Source: Halobacteriales archaeon
GTDB lineage: Archaea > Halobacteriota > Halobacteria > Halorutilales > JAHENH01
NCBI GenBank assembly: GCA_018609935.1
Contig: JAHENH010000073.1
Span: 1-5,686, forward strand
DNA length: 5,686 nt
Reading direction: 5' to 3'
Shown here: positions 1 to 5,686 of the stretch, piece after piece
Layout of the letters: each line of letters begins with the position of its first letter
Numbering within the stretch: position 1 is the first letter of the stretch
Notes under the pieces: generated by a model
What the model saw: the letters and a program-made list of their open reading frames with translations, nothing else
What the model was told of the DNA's origin: nothing
Database searches by the model: none
Made by a program: the position numbers and the translations under genes

Positions 1-309
1 CTTTATCAATTCATTGGAAAATGAATTAAGACTATAAGACTCTACAAGCTCATCATTTTCTATGGATAATATCTTTACACAGTTCTGTATATAAGCATGA
101 TCTCCACCACTTGTCTTCACTACATTCTTATTGTTCTTAAACTCATATTTATCCAGATAACTTAGATAAACAAGATCATCTTTGTTCACATATTTACCCT
201 TTATCTTTATGGCTTTGTTCTTAGGTATTATCACAAGATCATACCCTGTAACATAACCTTTAGGAGCTCTCTTTAGATCTAATTTATTTCCATCTTCATC
301 GAATATCAT
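1..309 (-). CDS. Unknown protein, N-terminal 103 residues (cut by window edge)
   Basis: This frame opens with ATG at 309 and stays open through the left edge of the window, so only the N-terminus is visible. Its ATG overlaps the TGA stop of the class II amidotransferase gene as ATGA, which supports both the start and translational coupling. The protein begins MIFDEDGNKLDLKRAPKGY and is mixed-charge and Lys/Asp-rich, with no signal peptide or membrane segment. Two segments, YVNKDDLVYLS (residues 40-50) and YIQNCVKILS (73-82), look like degenerate copies of one beta-rich unit, but the match is loose. All nine isoleucines use ATA, as in the neighbouring genes, so it belongs to the same genome compartment. 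I do not recognise the family. As the last visible gene of the cluster it could be a partner or substrate of the ligases, or simply the next viral gene. Confidence 0.8.
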   Translation of the reverse strand, partial: MIFDEDGNKLDLKRAPKGYVTGYDLVIIPKNKAIKIKGKYVNKDDLVYLSYLDKYEFKNNKNVVKTSGGDHAYIQNCVKILSIENDELVESYSLNSFSNELIK

Positions 310-2048
310 GATTCACTTTCTTTAATTCCTGAATGTTCTCTATATAAAACATCTAAGTCTTCTCTTAATATCTCAGCGTTCTCTCTTACTAATTGCATAT
401 CCAATATACCATCACAATTTAATTCCTGATGCATGTTAAGGAAAGTGTTATAAATTCTGAATATGAGATCATCCTTATCATTAGTGTATTCTACATCTTC
501 CTCTTCTTTTATAAGACCTATTCCTTCTTCTGTCTTGTCTCTATAGAAAGATAATATATCCTTACTTTCATCCTTTTTGTCTTTATCTTCTTTCTTTTCT
601 TCTTCCTTGATCTGTGAACCTTTTTCTGTAGGAGCCAGATCTTCTTTGAAATGATCGGTTCTAAGGATCAGATTCTCTGAACCATCTTTAGGATGAACGA
701 ATCTGGGTAGTCCTATTGAATCTACATTACTTATAGTATCGACTTTTCCATATATAACTTTCAAAGGACCTTTACCTTCTAAGGATTCTTCTGTGAAAGA
801 AGATTTATCTATATAAGATATATGTGACATTCTATTCAATAAATCTATTGGATTTTCTGATCTACTCTCTACAGGGTCCTTACATAGATTTAACTCTATA
901 TATCCTCCATTCTTAAGATGGACTACCTCGAACCATGTATCTCTGAGCTCACAATATTCGAGTGAAACTAACATAACATCCAAATCATTATTATCCCCAA
1001 AGAATAAGACATTTTCTAATTTACTTACGATGAAAGCTCTAGAATTATCTTTGAATTCTAATAATTCATAAGAATATTTATTTTTACTTACTTCCTGTCT
1101 TGATTTACAGGATTCAAGATATTTTTCTATATTATTTATCCCGAATATAGAGGATATTCCTGAATTCACCAAGCTACCCCAAGAAGCTTCTATAAAATTA
1201 TCTTTCTCGAATTCAAGGACTTTTTTCCATTTATCCTTATACATATTTAATCTATGATCATTAATGTTATCATTAATATCTTTATGAGATTCATATCCAC
1301 TATTATGGTTACCATATCCACTTCCATAGTGACTTCCATATCTTCTTCCATAATGAGTTGTTGGGGTTTTTTTCTTCTTTTTTATAGGATCTTTCTTTAT
1401 CTTCTTACTTCTATTATTTATTACTTTACCATCTTTTATACAGTAAAGATAGTCAGTTTTAAATTCCTTTATATTCTTACATCCTATAACTTCCAAAGAA
1501 TCTTTTATGGAAGAAATATACATTCCTCCATTTATTTCTCCTCTATAAAGAGGTCTTTCATCATTTCTTCTGAAGGCATACATCTCATCAGTTTCTTTAT
1601 CAATATAGACCACAGATGCTTTTCCTTCTATTTTCTCTAAAACTGATGTACCTCTATCCTTTATTAGAGAGATCAATAAATGACTATCTGTAAAATAATC
1701 ATCGAAATCTTCATCATATTCTTCGGCTAATTCCTCTGAATTTTTCAGAGTTCCATTATGAACTCCTACTATATTTTCTTCTTCATAAGGATGAGAGGAC
1801 CTATTATCCACTTTACCTTTGGATCTATTTCTTAAATGACCCAAGAAGATGTTACCATCCTTTATTTCATTCTTTATTATTTCATCTGTATAAGAACAAT
1901 TAGATTTTACCAGTTCATTATCTCCATTATTATTTCTTGAGTAGAACCCGCAAGAATCAAGTCCTCTTTTCTCATTCCATAACATTAAGAACTTTAACTT
2001 ATCTTTATCGTATTTATCTACAGATGAGTATGCTACTATACCACACAT
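306..2048 (-). CDS. Class II glutamine amidotransferase-like (Ntn-hydrolase) protein with long unknown C-terminal extension
   Basis: Residues 1-210 form a class II glutamine amidotransferase domain. After Met removal, Cys2 of MCGIVAYSS would be the N-terminal nucleophile. Other family motifs follow: RGLDSCGFYS (28-37), GHLRNRSKG (70-78), SHPYE with VHNGTLKN (85-103), DSHLL (121-125) and a late YISSIKDSLEVIG strand-helix (177-189). Cytosolic glutaminase, amidase or peptidase activity is expected. No synthetase, phosphoribosyltransferase or isomerase domain follows, so it is not PurF, GlmS, GltB or AsnB. Residues 214-255 are a basic, Gly/Tyr/His-rich linker, and residues about 265-465 are an unrecognised, apparently folded region. 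Residues 481-496 are almost all Lys/Glu/Asp, and a short helical tail follows. At 580 residues it is far longer than a lone class II domain. The start lies 12 nt after the cyclotransferase stop, behind an A-rich leader with no Shine-Dalgarno, and is fixed by the MCGI motif. The N-terminal domain is secure; the role of the extension is unknown. Confidence 0.93.
   Translation of the reverse strand: MCGIVAYSSVDKYDKDKLKFLMLWNEKRGLDSCGFYSRNNNGDNELVKSNCSYTDEIIKNEIKDGNIFLGHLRNRSKGKVDNRSSHPYEEENIVGVHNGTLKNSEELAEEYDEDFDDYFTDSHLLISLIKDRGTSVLEKIEGKASVVYIDKETDEMYAFRRNDERPLYRGEINGGMYISSIKDSLEVIGCKNIKEFKTDYLYCIKDGKVINNRSKKIKKDPIKKKKKTPTTHYGRRYGSHYGSGYGNHNSGYESHKDINDNINDHRLNMYKDKWKKVLEFEKDNFIEASWGSLVNSGISSIFGINNIEKYLESCKSRQEVSKNKYSYELLEFKDNSRAFIVSKLENVLFFGDNNDLDVMLVSLEYCELRDTWFEVVHLKNGGYIELNLCKDPVESRSENPIDLLNRMSHISYIDKSSFTEESLEGKGPLKVIYGKVDTISNVDSIGLPRFVHPKDGSENLILRTDHFKEDLAPTEKGSQIKEEEKKEDKDKKDESKDILSFYRDKTEEGIGLIKEEEDVEYTNDKDDLIFRIYNTFLNMHQELNCDGILDMQLVRENAEILREDLDVLYREHSGIKESES
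1305..1352 (-). repeat. 12-bp tandem repeat encoding YGxx tetrapeptides
   Basis: Read on the minus strand there are four head-to-tail 12-nt units, each starting TATGG: TATGGAAGAAGA, TATGGAAGTCAC, TATGGAAGTGGA and TATGGTAACCAT. They encode YGRR, YGSH, YGSG and YGNH (residues 233-248 of the class II amidotransferase protein). A weaker fifth copy, YESH, follows after a 9-nt insertion at 1284-1295. The array sits directly after a five-lysine run and separates the amidotransferase domain from the C-terminal extension. It is probably a flexible, low-complexity linker that grew by replication slippage. A nucleic-acid-binding or condensate-forming role is possible for such Gly/Tyr/Arg/His sequence, but nothing here shows it. 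Confidence 0.8.
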
Positions 2049-2060
2049 ATATTATTATTT

Positions 2061-2402
2061 TTAGTTATTAATAGGTTCATTATTGTATTCATTCCAGTCT
2101 CCTGACATTACTAATTCATCTTCATTGAATGTAGATTCATCATTACCTACATACATCTTAACCTTTTCTCCCTCTATAGTTATCCAATGGTCATGGTATC
2201 CTGCACCATGTTCCATATTATCTATAGAGAACAATTCCTTATCATCCACTTCTATTATATCTCCCTTTATACTTCTCTCACTGTCGTGAAATACTTTAGG
2301 GAATGGACCACAGGAATACATTCTGAATCCTTTTACTTCTATATTTTCTTTTATTAATTCTTCTCTTCCTCTTAAAATTCCATATACAAATAGTCTATTC
2401 AT
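2061..2402 (-). CDS. AIG2-like gamma-glutamylcyclotransferase (YtfP/GGACT type)
   Basis: This 113-residue protein has the cyclotransferase-fold signature. RLFVYGILRG at 3-12 is the YGTLR-type substrate loop at the end of strand 1. GPFPKVF (32-38) and IKGDIIEVDDKEL (45-57) match the next conserved strands. In FSIDNMEHGAGYHDHWITI, Glu64 sits where the family's general acid/base glutamate lies. SGDWNEY (100-106) matches the usual C-terminal motif. Its size is that of compact YtfP-like members rather than the longer animal glutathione-type enzymes. Family members cyclise a gamma-glutamyl group of an amine or peptide, releasing 5-oxoproline. Here it would remove gamma-glutamyl groups made or exposed by the neighbouring ligases and hydrolases. 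The start overlaps the upstream hydrolase gene by 8 nt. Family assignment is strong; the actual substrate is unknown. Confidence 0.9.
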   Translation of the reverse strand: MNRLFVYGILRGREELIKENIEVKGFRMYSCGPFPKVFHDSERSIKGDIIEVDDKELFSIDNMEHGAGYHDHWITIEGEKVKMYVGNDESTFNEDELVMSGDWNEYNNEPINN

Positions 2403-3093
2403 TTTCTTGTGCTTTTGAGATTTCTATTAATTCATTCATTATTTCTATTGATATTGGATCCTTTATCTTTTCAGGATGCCATTGTACCCCTATTATAGGT
2501 AATTCTTTATGACATATCATTTCTATTATATCATCATCACTCTTAGCTAGAGGTACTATATCTTTTCCCGGTTCATTTATAGCTTTGTGATGGATACTAT
2601 TGACAGCTATCTCTTGGTTAATGAGTTCTAAGACATCATCTGTTACTGTTTCAGGATTAATATCATCAATAAATTTATCCTGACTTATTCTATGTACCAA
2701 TGAGCATTTTTCTCTCTCATCTTTACTTTTATCATGATCCACTACATTCATTAGATTTCCTCCGAAATAATTATTAATTACTTGCATACCCCTACATATT
2801 GCGAATATGGGTATCTCTTTCTCTATGTATTTTTTCAACATTTTTACATCGAAGTAATCTAAATGAGTTTTAGCATCACTATTTAAATAAGAGGGATAAG
2901 AATTGTTCATCCCCATCAATGAATCTTTGCCTCCGGGGAGCATAAGAATATCTATATCCTCAGGCTCATCATCACTGTTAGGAGTTAGTATTTTCACATC
3001 TCCGAACATAGAGGCAAAGTCCATATATTTATAATTAACTCCCCATATCTTATCATATAAAGCTCCGGGGATTCCTATTCTCTTTCTTTGCAT
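2395..3093 (-). CDS. Class I glutamine amidotransferase-like gamma-glutamyl hydrolase (PuuD / peptidase C26 type)
   Basis: This 232-residue single-domain class I (triad) amidotransferase fold begins RKRIGIPG, the usual first strand. DILMLPGGKDS (48-58) supplies the oxyanion loop. PIFAICRGMQVINNYFGG (95-112) is the nucleophile elbow with Cys100. VNSIHHKAI (164-172) is typical of the PuuD/C26 group, and GVQWHPE (202-208) supplies His206 and Glu208, so the Cys-His-Glu triad is intact. Length and motifs fit free-standing hydrolases that cut gamma-glutamyl amide bonds, such as gamma-glutamyl-GABA hydrolase, rather than amidotransferase subunits of biosynthetic synthetases, which carry or pair with a synthetase partner. 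In this cluster it probably hydrolyses or edits a gamma-glutamyl product of the three upstream ligases. The start lies 19 nt inside the ATP-grasp gene with no Shine-Dalgarno, but homology to the first strand supports it. The substrate is not determined by the sequence. Confidence 0.92.
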   Translation of the reverse strand: MQRKRIGIPGALYDKIWGVNYKYMDFASMFGDVKILTPNSDDEPEDIDILMLPGGKDSLMGMNNSYPSYLNSDAKTHLDYFDVKMLKKYIEKEIPIFAICRGMQVINNYFGGNLMNVVDHDKSKDEREKCSLVHRISQDKFIDDINPETVTDDVLELINQEIAVNSIHHKAINEPGKDIVPLAKSDDDIIEMICHKELPIIGVQWHPEKIKDPISIEIMNELIEISKAQENE

Positions 3094-4058
3094 AAGGCAA
3101 TTGAATTTATGAAGCCTGAAATGGCTTCTCTTGTTATACTACTTGATATTCCGGGGTAAGAATTTAGCTCATAGAGATAAAACTCTTTACCCTCGTCTTT
3201 TTTACCTAGATCTATCCCGAGTATCTTATCTTCATCGGTGATCTTACTTAGTATATTGTTTATACTGAATACTACAGGTTCCAGATCTTTATACAAAGGA
3301 TGATTTTTCTTTAATATCATAGAATTTCCTCCTGTATGTAAGTTGGATCTGAATTCTCCTTTTTTGGCAGTTCTTATAATGATATTATGTATAGTGGAAT
3401 TTATAGCTATAACCCTTATGTCACAGCATTTATCCCTTATGCTACTTACGTGAGGATCTATATATTGTCCTAAAGTATATATAGGCTCTTGTAACAGTTC
3501 TCCATCTTCTATCTGTCCTCTATTCATAAGATCCACTACATCCTCTGATCTTATCTTTCTGACACCTTTACCTATTCTTCCTTTATTAGGCTTTACTATC
3601 AATTCATCATGATCGAAGGATTGACCTCTTATATCACTGGATACAACTTGGAATTCAGGTACTTTAAGATATGGGGTCTCATTCTTTTCCCCTTCTATTA
3701 ATTTATATGTCAATGCTTTATCATTACATATGCTTACTATATCGGGATCATTTATGATCCTATAAGGATAATTACTATAGAAAGGTTTATGCCTCCTGTT
3801 TATAACTATACTTCCATTTAGTAAAGAATATACATCTTCAAATTCAGGTATTAATTCTCCTTTATGATTATAGTCGAAACTTTCCACTAGATCTTTATCA
3901 TCATAGTGATAACATTTCTCTATTTTATTATCATTTTCATTTAGACATACCATAAAACTTGAATGTCCTATAGCATCGAACATTTCTTTATATTCTTCTA
4001 TATAGTTCGAGTAACTGTCTTCAAAATTCTCTTTATCGAATAAGAATATTATCTTCAT
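3075..4058 (-). CDS. ATP-grasp ligase, RimK/glutathione-synthetase-like
   Basis: This 327-residue protein has a full ATP-grasp layout. An N-terminal Rossmann-like pre-ATP-grasp domain starts MKIIFLFD and ends near INDPDIVSICNDKALTYKL (102-120). The ATP-binding lysine and glycine-rich loop are IVKPNKGRIGKGVRKI (154-169), and LLQEPI (188-193) is the adenine-contacting hinge. DIRVIAI (213-219), with RTAKKGEFRSNLHTGG (229-244), forms the conserved Arg/triphosphate region. GIDLG (281-285) and LYELNSYPGI (295-304) carry the metal-binding Asp, Glu and Asn. Such enzymes activate a carboxylate as an acyl-phosphate and join it to an amine, as in glutathione synthase or glutamate-ligating RimK. Nothing here fixes the acceptor. 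The start overlaps the upstream ATP-grasp gene by 26 nt and is placed by the MKII strand; it has no Shine-Dalgarno. It is only distantly similar to its ATP-grasp neighbour, so the two are not a recent duplication. Confidence 0.92.
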   Translation of the reverse strand: MKIIFLFDKENFEDSYSNYIEEYKEMFDAIGHSSFMVCLNENDNKIEKCYHYDDKDLVESFDYNHKGELIPEFEDVYSLLNGSIVINRRHKPFYSNYPYRIINDPDIVSICNDKALTYKLIEGEKNETPYLKVPEFQVVSSDIRGQSFDHDELIVKPNKGRIGKGVRKIRSEDVVDLMNRGQIEDGELLQEPIYTLGQYIDPHVSSIRDKCCDIRVIAINSTIHNIIIRTAKKGEFRSNLHTGGNSMILKKNHPLYKDLEPVVFSINNILSKITDEDKILGIDLGKKDEGKEFYLYELNSYPGISSSITREAISGFINSIALCKERE

Positions 4059-4866
4059 ATTTTTGTTTTAATATTTCAGGTATCTTTTCTTTATATTTTT
4101 CTATTGTTATATTACCGAATGAAGGTCCGGAACTGGTCTCTAATATCACGAATGGATTATTTCCTTGGTCATCCACTTGTGTACTGACCTTTACATCTAT
4201 GGCTCCTATATCCAATCCTACGGACTCTAATGTTTTTACACAATGTTCCTCTATCTCATCCCAATTATTAGGTTTATTGAACTTAGGATTCGTCTCAAGG
4301 AACCACACGCAATTAGAATCATTTCTGAACCATCTATTGTCTTCCGGTCTATCTCTTTTTATCATTTTTCTACAGGTGTAGAAGCATCCATCCTTTGTAA
4401 CATGGAGCCTGTATTCTCTTCCGTAGTTATGGAACTTCTCGAATATATAATCATTTATATTTATATCTTCATTATTCAAGAACTCTCTGAATTCTTCCCG
4501 AGAATCCAATTTACGCATACCTCTGGCTCTACTACTCTTTCTTTTCTTAGCTAGAATAGGATATTCCATATCTTGTTCTTCTGGTACTTGAGATGCGAAC
4601 CAATCAGGAGTTCTCACTCCATATAGATCGAATTGCTGTTTCATTGTTTTCTTATCACCGGATCTCTTCACCGCTTCAACTGAATTACATTCCACTACAC
4701 TTCTTCCTTTATTTATTTTGTGATTAGGTGTAACAGATCCTAATCTTACAGTGGATCTGAAATTCAATGTCGGTAATTCTTTACCTCTAGGTTTTAGTGG
4801 TTTGTGACTTGGGTGAGGTGATCTAACTCTAGGTCTGTGTCTCTTTGATCTTGTGTTCTGTGTCAT
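4033..4866 (-). CDS. ATP-grasp ligase with basic N-terminal tail
   Basis: This 277-residue ATP-grasp protein is of the short phage-associated kind. LNFRSTVRLGSVTP (34-47) and the helix with RSGDKKTMKQQF (68-79) replace a full pre-ATP-grasp domain. YPILAKKRKSSRARGMRKL (102-120) holds the ATP-binding lysine and an Arg/Ser-rich phosphate loop. YIFEKFHNYGREYRLHV (140-156) is the hinge plus conserved Arg strand. GLDIGAIDVKV (217-227) and FVILETSSGPSFG (239-251) hold the metal-binding Asp, Glu and downstream Ser/Asn-type positions. In the last motif ETSS stands where many family members have ENxx. Residues 1-30 contain 13 Arg/Lys/His, five Pro and one acidic residue, so they are likely disordered and could bind an acidic substrate. 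The start overlaps the COOH.NH2 ligase gene by 38 nt. No other Met precedes the domain, so this start is preferred. A ligase role is secure; the substrate is unknown. Confidence 0.9.
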   Translation of the reverse strand: MTQNTRSKRHRPRVRSPHPSHKPLKPRGKELPTLNFRSTVRLGSVTPNHKINKGRSVVECNSVEAVKRSGDKKTMKQQFDLYGVRTPDWFASQVPEEQDMEYPILAKKRKSSRARGMRKLDSREEFREFLNNEDININDYIFEKFHNYGREYRLHVTKDGCFYTCRKMIKRDRPEDNRWFRNDSNCVWFLETNPKFNKPNNWDEIEEHCVKTLESVGLDIGAIDVKVSTQVDDQGNNPFVILETSSGPSFGNITIEKYKEKIPEILKQKYEDNILIR

Positions 4867-5590
4867 TTTCTAGTATTTGTTTAGCTAATTCTGTATCATT
4901 TTCGTTTATACATTCTTTTATTGTCTGGTCTTGCACATTCTCTCCTTTGATAGCTTTGACCACTTGGTCATAGATAAAACCTATCTCATCAGGATCAGAG
5001 GTCCAGAAATTAGATAGAGTTCTATATTCTAATCCATATTCTTTATTTCTGAAACTTCCCGCTTTACCATATAACTCTCTTCTTCTGGTATCATAGTCAG
5101 TGAATAGTGAATAGAGACCTAAAAAATAATCTAATTTCTTTGCTATCTCTATATTCTCTTGTTCATCACCACTATGTCCTATATGAATATGTCCGCCAGC
5201 AGTTCTGAACTTATGGTCGGGATTTGGAGGATAGATGATCTCCTCTGACCAAGCATCTATTTCCTCATCACACCCCATATCTCTTCCCAATTCTGATTCC
5301 AGTTCCTCTTTATCGAATTCCTCGGAGGCTATTACACCTATATCCATATCTGATGGAATATAATCTCTTATGAGATCATAAGCTTCATTCATATTACTTA
5401 CGAATTCTTCTTTGGACCTGGAAACAGGTACATTGAACTCTACTGCTAGATTATCTTTATGAATAAAGAACCCTTCTTTTAATTTCTTAGGTTCTTTCTT
5501 AGTGCCTTCTATAGCCCCTTCCGGAGAAATAGGAAGACCCATGTGATCATAGAGGAATACCTCTATATCAGCTCCTATTGTATTTAGCAT
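4829..5590 (-). CDS. phiEco32-type COOH.NH2 ligase (glutamine synthetase fold, type 2)
   Basis: This 253-residue amidoligase carries the motifs of the phage phiEco32-like COOH.NH2 ligase type 2 family. IGADIEVFL (5-13) holds the first metal-binding Asp/Glu pair, and DNLAVEFNVP (46-55) the second metal-binding Glu. GCDEEIDAWS (106-115) follows. RTAGGHIHIGH (129-139) is the conserved Gly-His motif, DTRRRELYGKAGSFR (167-181) the phosphate-binding Arg cluster, and YGLEYRTLSNFW (185-196) the terminal catalytic strand. The family is related in fold to glutamine synthetase and glutamate-cysteine ligase and is predicted to join a carboxylate to an amine using ATP. The length is normal and no key motif is missing. 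The C-terminal 40 residues are polar and helical. The start overlaps the upstream frame by 7 nt (ATGCTAA) with no clear Shine-Dalgarno. As the first complete gene it probably makes the first or defining bond of the pathway, which is an inference. Confidence 0.94.
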   Translation of the reverse strand: MLNTIGADIEVFLYDHMGLPISPEGAIEGTKKEPKKLKEGFFIHKDNLAVEFNVPVSRSKEEFVSNMNEAYDLIRDYIPSDMDIGVIASEEFDKEELESELGRDMGCDEEIDAWSEEIIYPPNPDHKFRTAGGHIHIGHSGDEQENIEIAKKLDYFLGLYSLFTDYDTRRRELYGKAGSFRNKEYGLEYRTLSNFWTSDPDEIGFIYDQVVKAIKGENVQDQTIKECINENDTELAKQILENDTEHKIKETQT

Positions 5591-5686
5591 AAAATATCTT
5601 TAATATCTGCCCTTTTACTTTTTTCACCATTATAATATTCTACTTTTCTTCTTGAAAGAGGTCCTGCTACTCTATAACTATCTATC
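5584..5686 (-). CDS. Unknown protein, C-terminal 33 residues (cut by window edge)
   Basis: On the minus strand one frame entering from the right edge is open and ends at TAA (5586-5584). The other two frames have stops within the first 20 nt of the window edge. The visible tail reads IDSYRVAGPLSRRKVEYYNG followed by a short Lys/Arg-rich end, KDILC. Its stop lies just past the start of the COOH.NH2 ligase gene (ATGCTAA), giving a 7-nt overlap like the other junctions in the cluster, and this is the main support for it being a real gene. The visible part is basic, with no membrane segment. The family is not recognisable from 33 residues. Confidence 0.65.
   Translation of the reverse strand, partial: IDSYRVAGPLSRRKVEYYNGEKSKRADIKDILC

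Follow-up and report, generated by a model that had tools for sequence, protein, structure and literature searches.

Six amide-bond enzymes on one strand

What function is served by a run of enzymes that make and break amide bonds, encoded back to back in a single orientation? The question is raised by contig JAHENH010000073.1 (assembly GCA_018609935.1, deposited as a Halobacteriales archaeon), of which we analyzed positions 1 to 5,686; this whole stretch of 5,686 nucleotides (nt) is referred to here as the window. A preliminary description made from the letters alone had recognized, at 306 to 5590, one ligase of glutamine synthetase (GS) fold, two ATP-grasp ligases, class I and class II amidases, and a gamma-glutamylcyclotransferase (GGCT). 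Pfam, PHROG, and fold comparisons bore out all six enzymes. The set itself, however, has already been published under the name phage "peptidoglycan modification cassette" (PMC5498523), and the window is a new copy of it: of the published components, it holds the PF14395 ligase, ATP-grasp (two genes), class II amidotransferase, and GGCT. In our preferred reading, to which we give about even confidence, the window represents the amidoligase or peptidoglycan modification cassette of a probably crAss-like tailed phage, with host peptidoglycan as the likely substrate and with an extra ATP-grasp ligase.

Six intact open reading frames (ORFs) lie on the minus strand and are transcribed from 5590 toward 306 in the order PF14395 COOH-NH2 ligase, ATP-grasp 1, ATP-grasp 2, class I (C26) amidase, GGCT, and class II amidotransferase, followed by a partial ORF. 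Neighboring frames overlap by 38, 26, 19, and 8 bases and are separated once, by a 12-base gap; the partial seventh ORF overlaps the end of the sixth by 4 bases and exits the window at base 1. The earlier count of six genes holds for the intact frames, and this truncated ORF adds one more. The window decodes with the standard code. Upstream of 5590, the last 33 residues of a reading frame gave no convincing match (best E value, 0.67), and none of the six window proteins matched a PADLOC anti-phage defense model at E ≤ 0.01. All seven gene starts are preceded by A/T-rich leaders without a clear Shine-Dalgarno sequence, as in Bacteroidota and their phages.

The first complete gene (4829 to 5590; 253 amino acids [aa]) encodes a COOH-NH2 ligase type 2 (phage phiEco32-like) with a GS/gamma-glutamylcysteine synthetase (GCS) fold, which scored over the PF14395 cutoff and matched phrog_3815 (E 7e-63). 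It is followed by ATP-grasp 1 (4033 to 4866; 277 aa), a ligase with a RimK/LysX-like fold that is the core cassette ATP-grasp of crAss-like relatives. Both folds were identified by structural comparison, and a search of solved structures by sequence gave no useful match for the GS-fold ligase. At residues 243 to 246 of ATP-grasp 1 (window 4129 to 4140), Ser replaces the usual metal-site Asn, a substitution unique among 53 sequences.

Three further intact genes lie downstream of the ATP-grasp ligases. The class I glutamine amidotransferase-like amidase (2395 to 3093; 232 aa), of the peptidase C26, gamma-glutamyl hydrolase type, matched PF07722 (E 2e-32) and PF00117 (E 2e-19), with Lin1909 (E 2e-15) and PuuD (E 1e-7) as relatives in the PDB. 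The GGCT, or AIG2-like protein (2061 to 2402; 113 aa), passed the PF06094 cutoff (E 2e-12) and shares ∼30% identity with the GGCT of phage HP1 and with that of phage T4S1-k141_470236; solved structures searched by sequence yielded no useful match. The class II (Ntn) glutamine amidotransferase (306 to 2048; 580 aa) begins MCGIV and carries its domain in the N-terminal part, with PF13522 over cutoff at residues 63 to 180 (E 4e-16) and a match to phrog_4736 (E 3e-28). For its residues 226 to 580, no relative was detected at E ≤ 1 among 6,419 ORFs of the 161 viral loci described below; these C-terminal 355 residues (window 306 to 1373) include lysine-rich and GYG/HYG-rich stretches. By family and fold (GS/GCS fold, C26/PuuD-like amidase, and GGCT), a gamma-glutamyl bond appears to be the common thread, in keeping with the gamma-glutamyl-type chemistry proposed at the outset.

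Conservation of the gene set in viral contigs

Viral contigs were scanned with alignment queries: ATP-grasp 1 identified 76 loci, and the ligase identified at least 501 relatives (at least 600 stretches), from which 80 loci were kept. Single-protein queries in the scans found no locus. At 85% identity on two anchor proteins, 117 of the 161 loci were nonredundant, and the 76 of these that spanned at least 15 kb constitute our main data set. Profiles for six families, whose seed sequences came from the window, from ligases in databases, and from six named phages, detected the ligase in 74 of these 76 loci, ATP-grasp 1 in 74, the class II amidotransferase in 76, a second amidoligase (amidoligase-2) in 76, the class I amidase in 64, and GGCT in 51; the first two counts hold partly by construction, since loci were chosen by those two proteins, and the other four do not. 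All six families were present in 41 loci and at least five in 70, as expected of the dedicated, conserved gene set that had been proposed. Loss of co-occurrence across relatives, which the preliminary description had named as evidence against such a set, was looked for, and co-occurrence was kept.

By query, the 38 loci retrieved with ATP-grasp 1 included 36 with the ligase, 30 with the class I amidase, and 29 with the cyclotransferase; the 36 retrieved with the ligase included 34 with ATP-grasp 1, 32 with the class I amidase, and 21 with the cyclotransferase. Across 45 loci, the median span of all six families was 7.2 kb, and 643 of 644 cassette ORFs were co-oriented with the query. As a control, the six profiles were run on the structural half of Cellulophaga phage phi14:2 and matched none of its 110 frames. 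The ligase alone was present in 311 of 50,697 phage records. A further conserved ORF (227 aa in L119, 10771 to 11451) was seen in 26 loci and lay inside the cassette in 25 of them; its PHROG matches were to families of unknown function.

Origin of the window

The window itself is too short to show neighboring genes, and its relatives were used instead. Clusters of primase, DnaB, Sak4, or exonuclease occurred in 51 of the 76 loci of the main data set. We compared 20 of the 21 commonest neighbor clusters with PHROGs, leaving out one 97-aa cluster: 12 were assigned a function, 2 hit nothing but families of unknown function, and 6 had no match. For all 12, the best match fell in DNA, RNA, and nucleotide metabolism (primase, DnaB, Sak4, exonuclease, RusA, DNA polymerase, ribonucleotide reductase [RNR], helicase, and endonuclease), and none was structural. 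The cassettes of the crAss-like phages phi14:2 and cr108_1 lie between primase and uracil-DNA glycosylase.

TerL was sought in 46 of the records of the 76 loci found with ATP-grasp 1, picked mostly for length. With the phi14:2 TerL protein as the query, crAss-like TerL was detected in 24 of these 46 ATP-grasp 1 records; among the 24 records with a length of at least 75 kb, 23 had it. The Pfam terminase model PF03237 matched none of 27 records. When the window was compared with phage DNA by blastn, only phi14:2 was similar (74% across a 258-base segment of ATP-grasp 1). Judged solely by these relatives, the window very probably derives from a tailed phage, as the preliminary description had supposed, and this phage was probably crAss-like. 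Within the terminase match, in-frame stops were seen as TAG in the L043, L050, L067, and L076 records and as TGA in the L053 record, which suggests that several crAss-like relatives have reassigned stop codons.

A probable second amidoligase at the window end

The partial seventh ORF (1 to 309, minus strand) comprises the N-terminal 103 residues of a protein cut by the window end. It is probably the start of a second amidoligase of the Amidoligase_2 (PF12224) type, and gene order argues for this more strongly than sequence does. Of the nonredundant loci retrieved with ATP-grasp 1, 43 had their first class II amidotransferase away from a contig end, and in all 43 amidoligase-2 came directly after it. 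The two genes were adjacent, in either order, in 97 of 104 nonredundant loci with both, the seven exceptions including HP1. In a phmmer search against the 6,419 ORFs, amidoligase-2 proteins took ranks 1 and 2 (E 1.1e-4 and 5.6e-3) as well as ranks 6, 9, and 10, and the remaining high ranks were unlabeled or GGCT ORFs with E > 0.1. This sequence evidence is suggestive, because the two best amidoligase-2 alignments differ in register and a profile of amidoligase-2 N termini scored a weak 6.9 bits. The 103 residues had no Pfam match.

In a subset of loci, amidoligase-2 is followed by a second, different Ntn-type protein that starts with MCLI or MCII and is 220 to 454 aa long (L007, 13787 to 14485; L021, 12138 to 12797; L025, 14308 to 14967; L022, 17277 to 18560; L101, 6376 to 7704; and L116, 13828 to 15189).

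An additional ATP-grasp ligase

ATP-grasp 2 (3075 to 4058, minus strand; 327 aa) is an extra, RimK/YheCD-like gene. It matched PF14398 (E 1.8e-11) and PF08443 (E 5e-10), and its PF08443 RimK domain score of 39.6 bits passed the Pfam curated cutoff of 21. With the NCBIfam rimK_fam model (E 8e-14), it scored 51.7 bits against a curated cutoff of 143.4; since this falls below the cutoff, we call the protein RimK-like and do not class it as RimK. A word-based search of 5.8 billion proteins, which required shared 5-residue words, returned only the protein itself at E ≤ 1e-3.

Relatives of this ligase were sought in 50 of the same 76 records, likewise picked mostly for length. PF14398 matched in 3 records, never over cutoff, twice on ATP-grasp 1 and once weakly elsewhere (L082). 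The Pfam RimK model matched in 15 records, in 14 of them on ATP-grasp 1 itself; the single match off ATP-grasp 1, in the L047 record, was weak (E 9e-4) and below cutoff. Because the weak L047 and L082 matches lie off ATP-grasp 1, a divergent second ATP-grasp is possible in one or two relatives. This predicted orphan RimK-like ligase is the main difference between the window and its relatives and is new within the searches made.

Possible function of the cassette

GS/GCS-fold ligases activate a gamma-carboxylate, class II amidotransferases liberate ammonia from glutamine, C26/PuuD-type enzymes and cyclotransferases cleave gamma-glutamyl amides, and the peptidoglycan stem peptide includes a gamma-D-glutamyl bond. 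If the cassette acts on the host cell wall, as we favor, the GS-fold ligase would use ATP early in infection to activate the gamma-carboxylate of a glutamate-type residue and couple an amine to it, and the RimK/LysX-like ATP-grasp enzymes would append further residues. The class II amidotransferase may provide glutamine-derived ammonia to the neighboring amidoligase-2, a glutaminase-synthetase pair suggested by the usual adjacency of the two genes (HP1 excepted), and the class I amidase and cyclotransferase would cleave or recycle gamma-glutamyl bonds. Stem peptides of the host peptidoglycan, or their precursors, would be the likely substrate, and the likely gain an altered cell wall that hinders competing phages; all substrates, the coupling of the class II enzyme to amidoligase-2, and the advantage to the phage are inferred. 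The idea has precedent: PMC5498523 cites the hypothesis that the cassette alters the host surface against superinfection, and PMC10580990 and PMC11318856 credit the cell wall idea to Iyer 2009.

The preliminary description had regarded the product as not established, and the accessible portions of the literature show none. It had also considered a virion or host protein as a possible target. A virion target is disfavored because relatives place the cassette among replication genes, because the predicted peptidoglycan modification genes of HP1 are expressed immediately, followed by host takeover and DNA metabolism genes (PMC7082346), and because the five cassette genes of phi14:2 are without the tandem mass spectrometry (MS/MS)-virion note borne by many phi14:2 structural genes. 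The first two of these observations also favor an early host target over the virion.

The same timing and neighborhood leave host proteins unaffected as targets, and it is conceivable, although rather unlikely, that the ligases add glutamate or a similar residue to a host or phage protein and that the hydrolases trim or recycle this tag. RimK acts on ribosomal protein S6 and LysX on its carrier protein, so the RimK/LysX-like fold of ATP-grasp 1 is compatible with a protein target; fold does not fix substrate, however, and the six abutting or overlapping genes leave no room on their strand for a small carrier or tag ORF, which could lie elsewhere in the genome. A more specific version strikes us as distinctly improbable: a reversible phage peptide-tagging system, common to crAss-like, phiEco32-like, and LUZ24-like phages, in which RimK/LysX-like and Pup-ligase-like enzymes would, early in infection, give a host protein a gamma-glutamyl or oligo-glutamyl tag, ATP-grasp 2 would lengthen or branch it, and the dedicated Ntn, C26, and cyclotransferase enzymes would trim and recycle it. 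We also consider it unlikely that the genes are auxiliary metabolic genes that make or recycle a soluble glutathione-like gamma-glutamyl compound or channel nitrogen into amino acids. The combination of GS/GCS-fold ligase, ATP-grasp, and GGCT does resemble glutathione synthesis and breakdown, and Phage-ZRK32, whose amidoligase, glutamine amidotransferase, glutathione synthase, and GGCT genes have been read as nitrogen and amino acid metabolism, promotes growth with nitrate or ammonium (PMC10945688). That growth effect belongs to the whole phage, however, and the role of the genes is its authors' inference (PMC10945688); moreover, a Pfam search found no transporter or regulator family among the window ORFs.

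Two further explanations seem highly improbable to us. The position of the cassette in the replication block, beside primase, DnaB, Sak4, exonuclease, DNA polymerase, and RNR genes and, in phi14:2 and cr108_1, next to uracil-DNA glycosylase, could point to DNA or nucleotide modification; to our knowledge, though, no DNA-modifying enzyme is known among the families found in the window, and the replication block may simply be where early genes lie. A bacterial chromosomal pathway, our other very doubtful candidate, could account for the 12 loci found when the ligase alignment was compared with 84,980 species genomes, 10 of which held at least three cassette families; on one of the 12, the 160-kb contig of a Rickettsiales metagenome-assembled genome (MAG), six ORFs tried gave no PHROG match. 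Yet all 12 are MAG contigs: one carries a phage terminase, another, from a Colwellia MAG, has primase/helicase, DNA polymerase, and exonuclease genes of phage type beside the cassette, and the other 10, the Rickettsiales contig included, are placed neither way. Chromosomal clusters with a known product, which the preliminary description had said would count against it, were shown at none of the 12, and phi14:2 was the one phage whose DNA resembled the window in the blastn comparison.

The cassette is common, occurs in phages from widely separated families, including crAss-like ones, and is reported to be expressed immediately in one phage. Identifying its substrate would show whether a large number of phages remodel the host wall, tag host proteins, or supply a metabolite, and the usual adjacency of class II amidotransferase and amidoligase-2 points to a first reaction of interest.

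Relation to known systems

The published cassette was described as seven genes in RIO1-like phages, comprising a gamma-glutamyl amidoligase, a second amidoligase, ATP-grasp, cyclotransferase, and glutamine amidotransferase, set among phage transcription, DNA metabolism, and replication genes; its carriers are the Pseudoalteromonas phages HP1/RIO-1 and phages phiEco32, 7-11, LUZ24, PaP3, tf, MR299-2, PA11, and CW02 (PMC5498523). The primase/helicase gene of a LUZ24-like phage is preceded by genes for the ligase, an amidoligase, a class II amidotransferase, an ATP-grasp enzyme, and AIG2/GGCT (PMC3890496), and such a module is reported in another LUZ24-like phage (PMC11945000). Our profiles recovered five of the six families in HP1, whose ligase was found with the same profile as the PF14395 ligase of the window. 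The two cassettes share a COOH-NH2 ligase, ATP-grasp, class II amidotransferase, and GGCT, and probably a second amidoligase, on a single strand, with replication genes around that of HP1. The window differs in its second, RimK-like ATP-grasp, in its class I (C26) amidase, unmatched by profile in HP1, and in gene order; its ATP-grasp 1 belongs to a crAss-like branch, unlike that of the published cassette. At the level of folds, the GS-type ligase resembles gamma-glutamylcysteine synthetase/YbdK and ATP-grasp 1 resembles RimK/LysX, although identity to those enzymes in structural alignments is only 10 to 17%, and we do not claim membership.

From its sequence distribution, the cassette appears to be widespread in crAss-like phages, which is new so far as the literature was searched: partial searches, which do not prove absence, found no statement linking the two, and in the accessible portion of one crAss paper the term "ATP-grasp" refers to a bacterial protein (PMC12118408). 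The closest counterparts are the cassettes of phi14:2 (g037 to g041) and cr108_1 (gp028 to gp034), whose ATP-grasp 1 proteins are 46% and 44% identical, respectively, to that of the window. In both, amidoligase-2 directly follows the class II amidotransferase; the second ATP-grasp, present in the window, was not found in either cassette, and over the stretches examined the profiles did not find the class I amidase in phi14:2 or GGCT in cr108_1. Leptolyngbya phage Lbo-JY46 differs in having three class I-type ORFs, an ATP-grasp 1 nearly twice as long as that of the window, and adjacent PncB and PrsA genes. These encode nicotinic acid phosphoribosyltransferase and phosphoribosylpyrophosphate synthetase directly upstream of the cassette (L001, 2192 to 6401) and could serve NAD synthesis. 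The Lbo-JY46 cassette (L001, 6463 to 14950) carries all six families and, like the window, has its genes on one strand.

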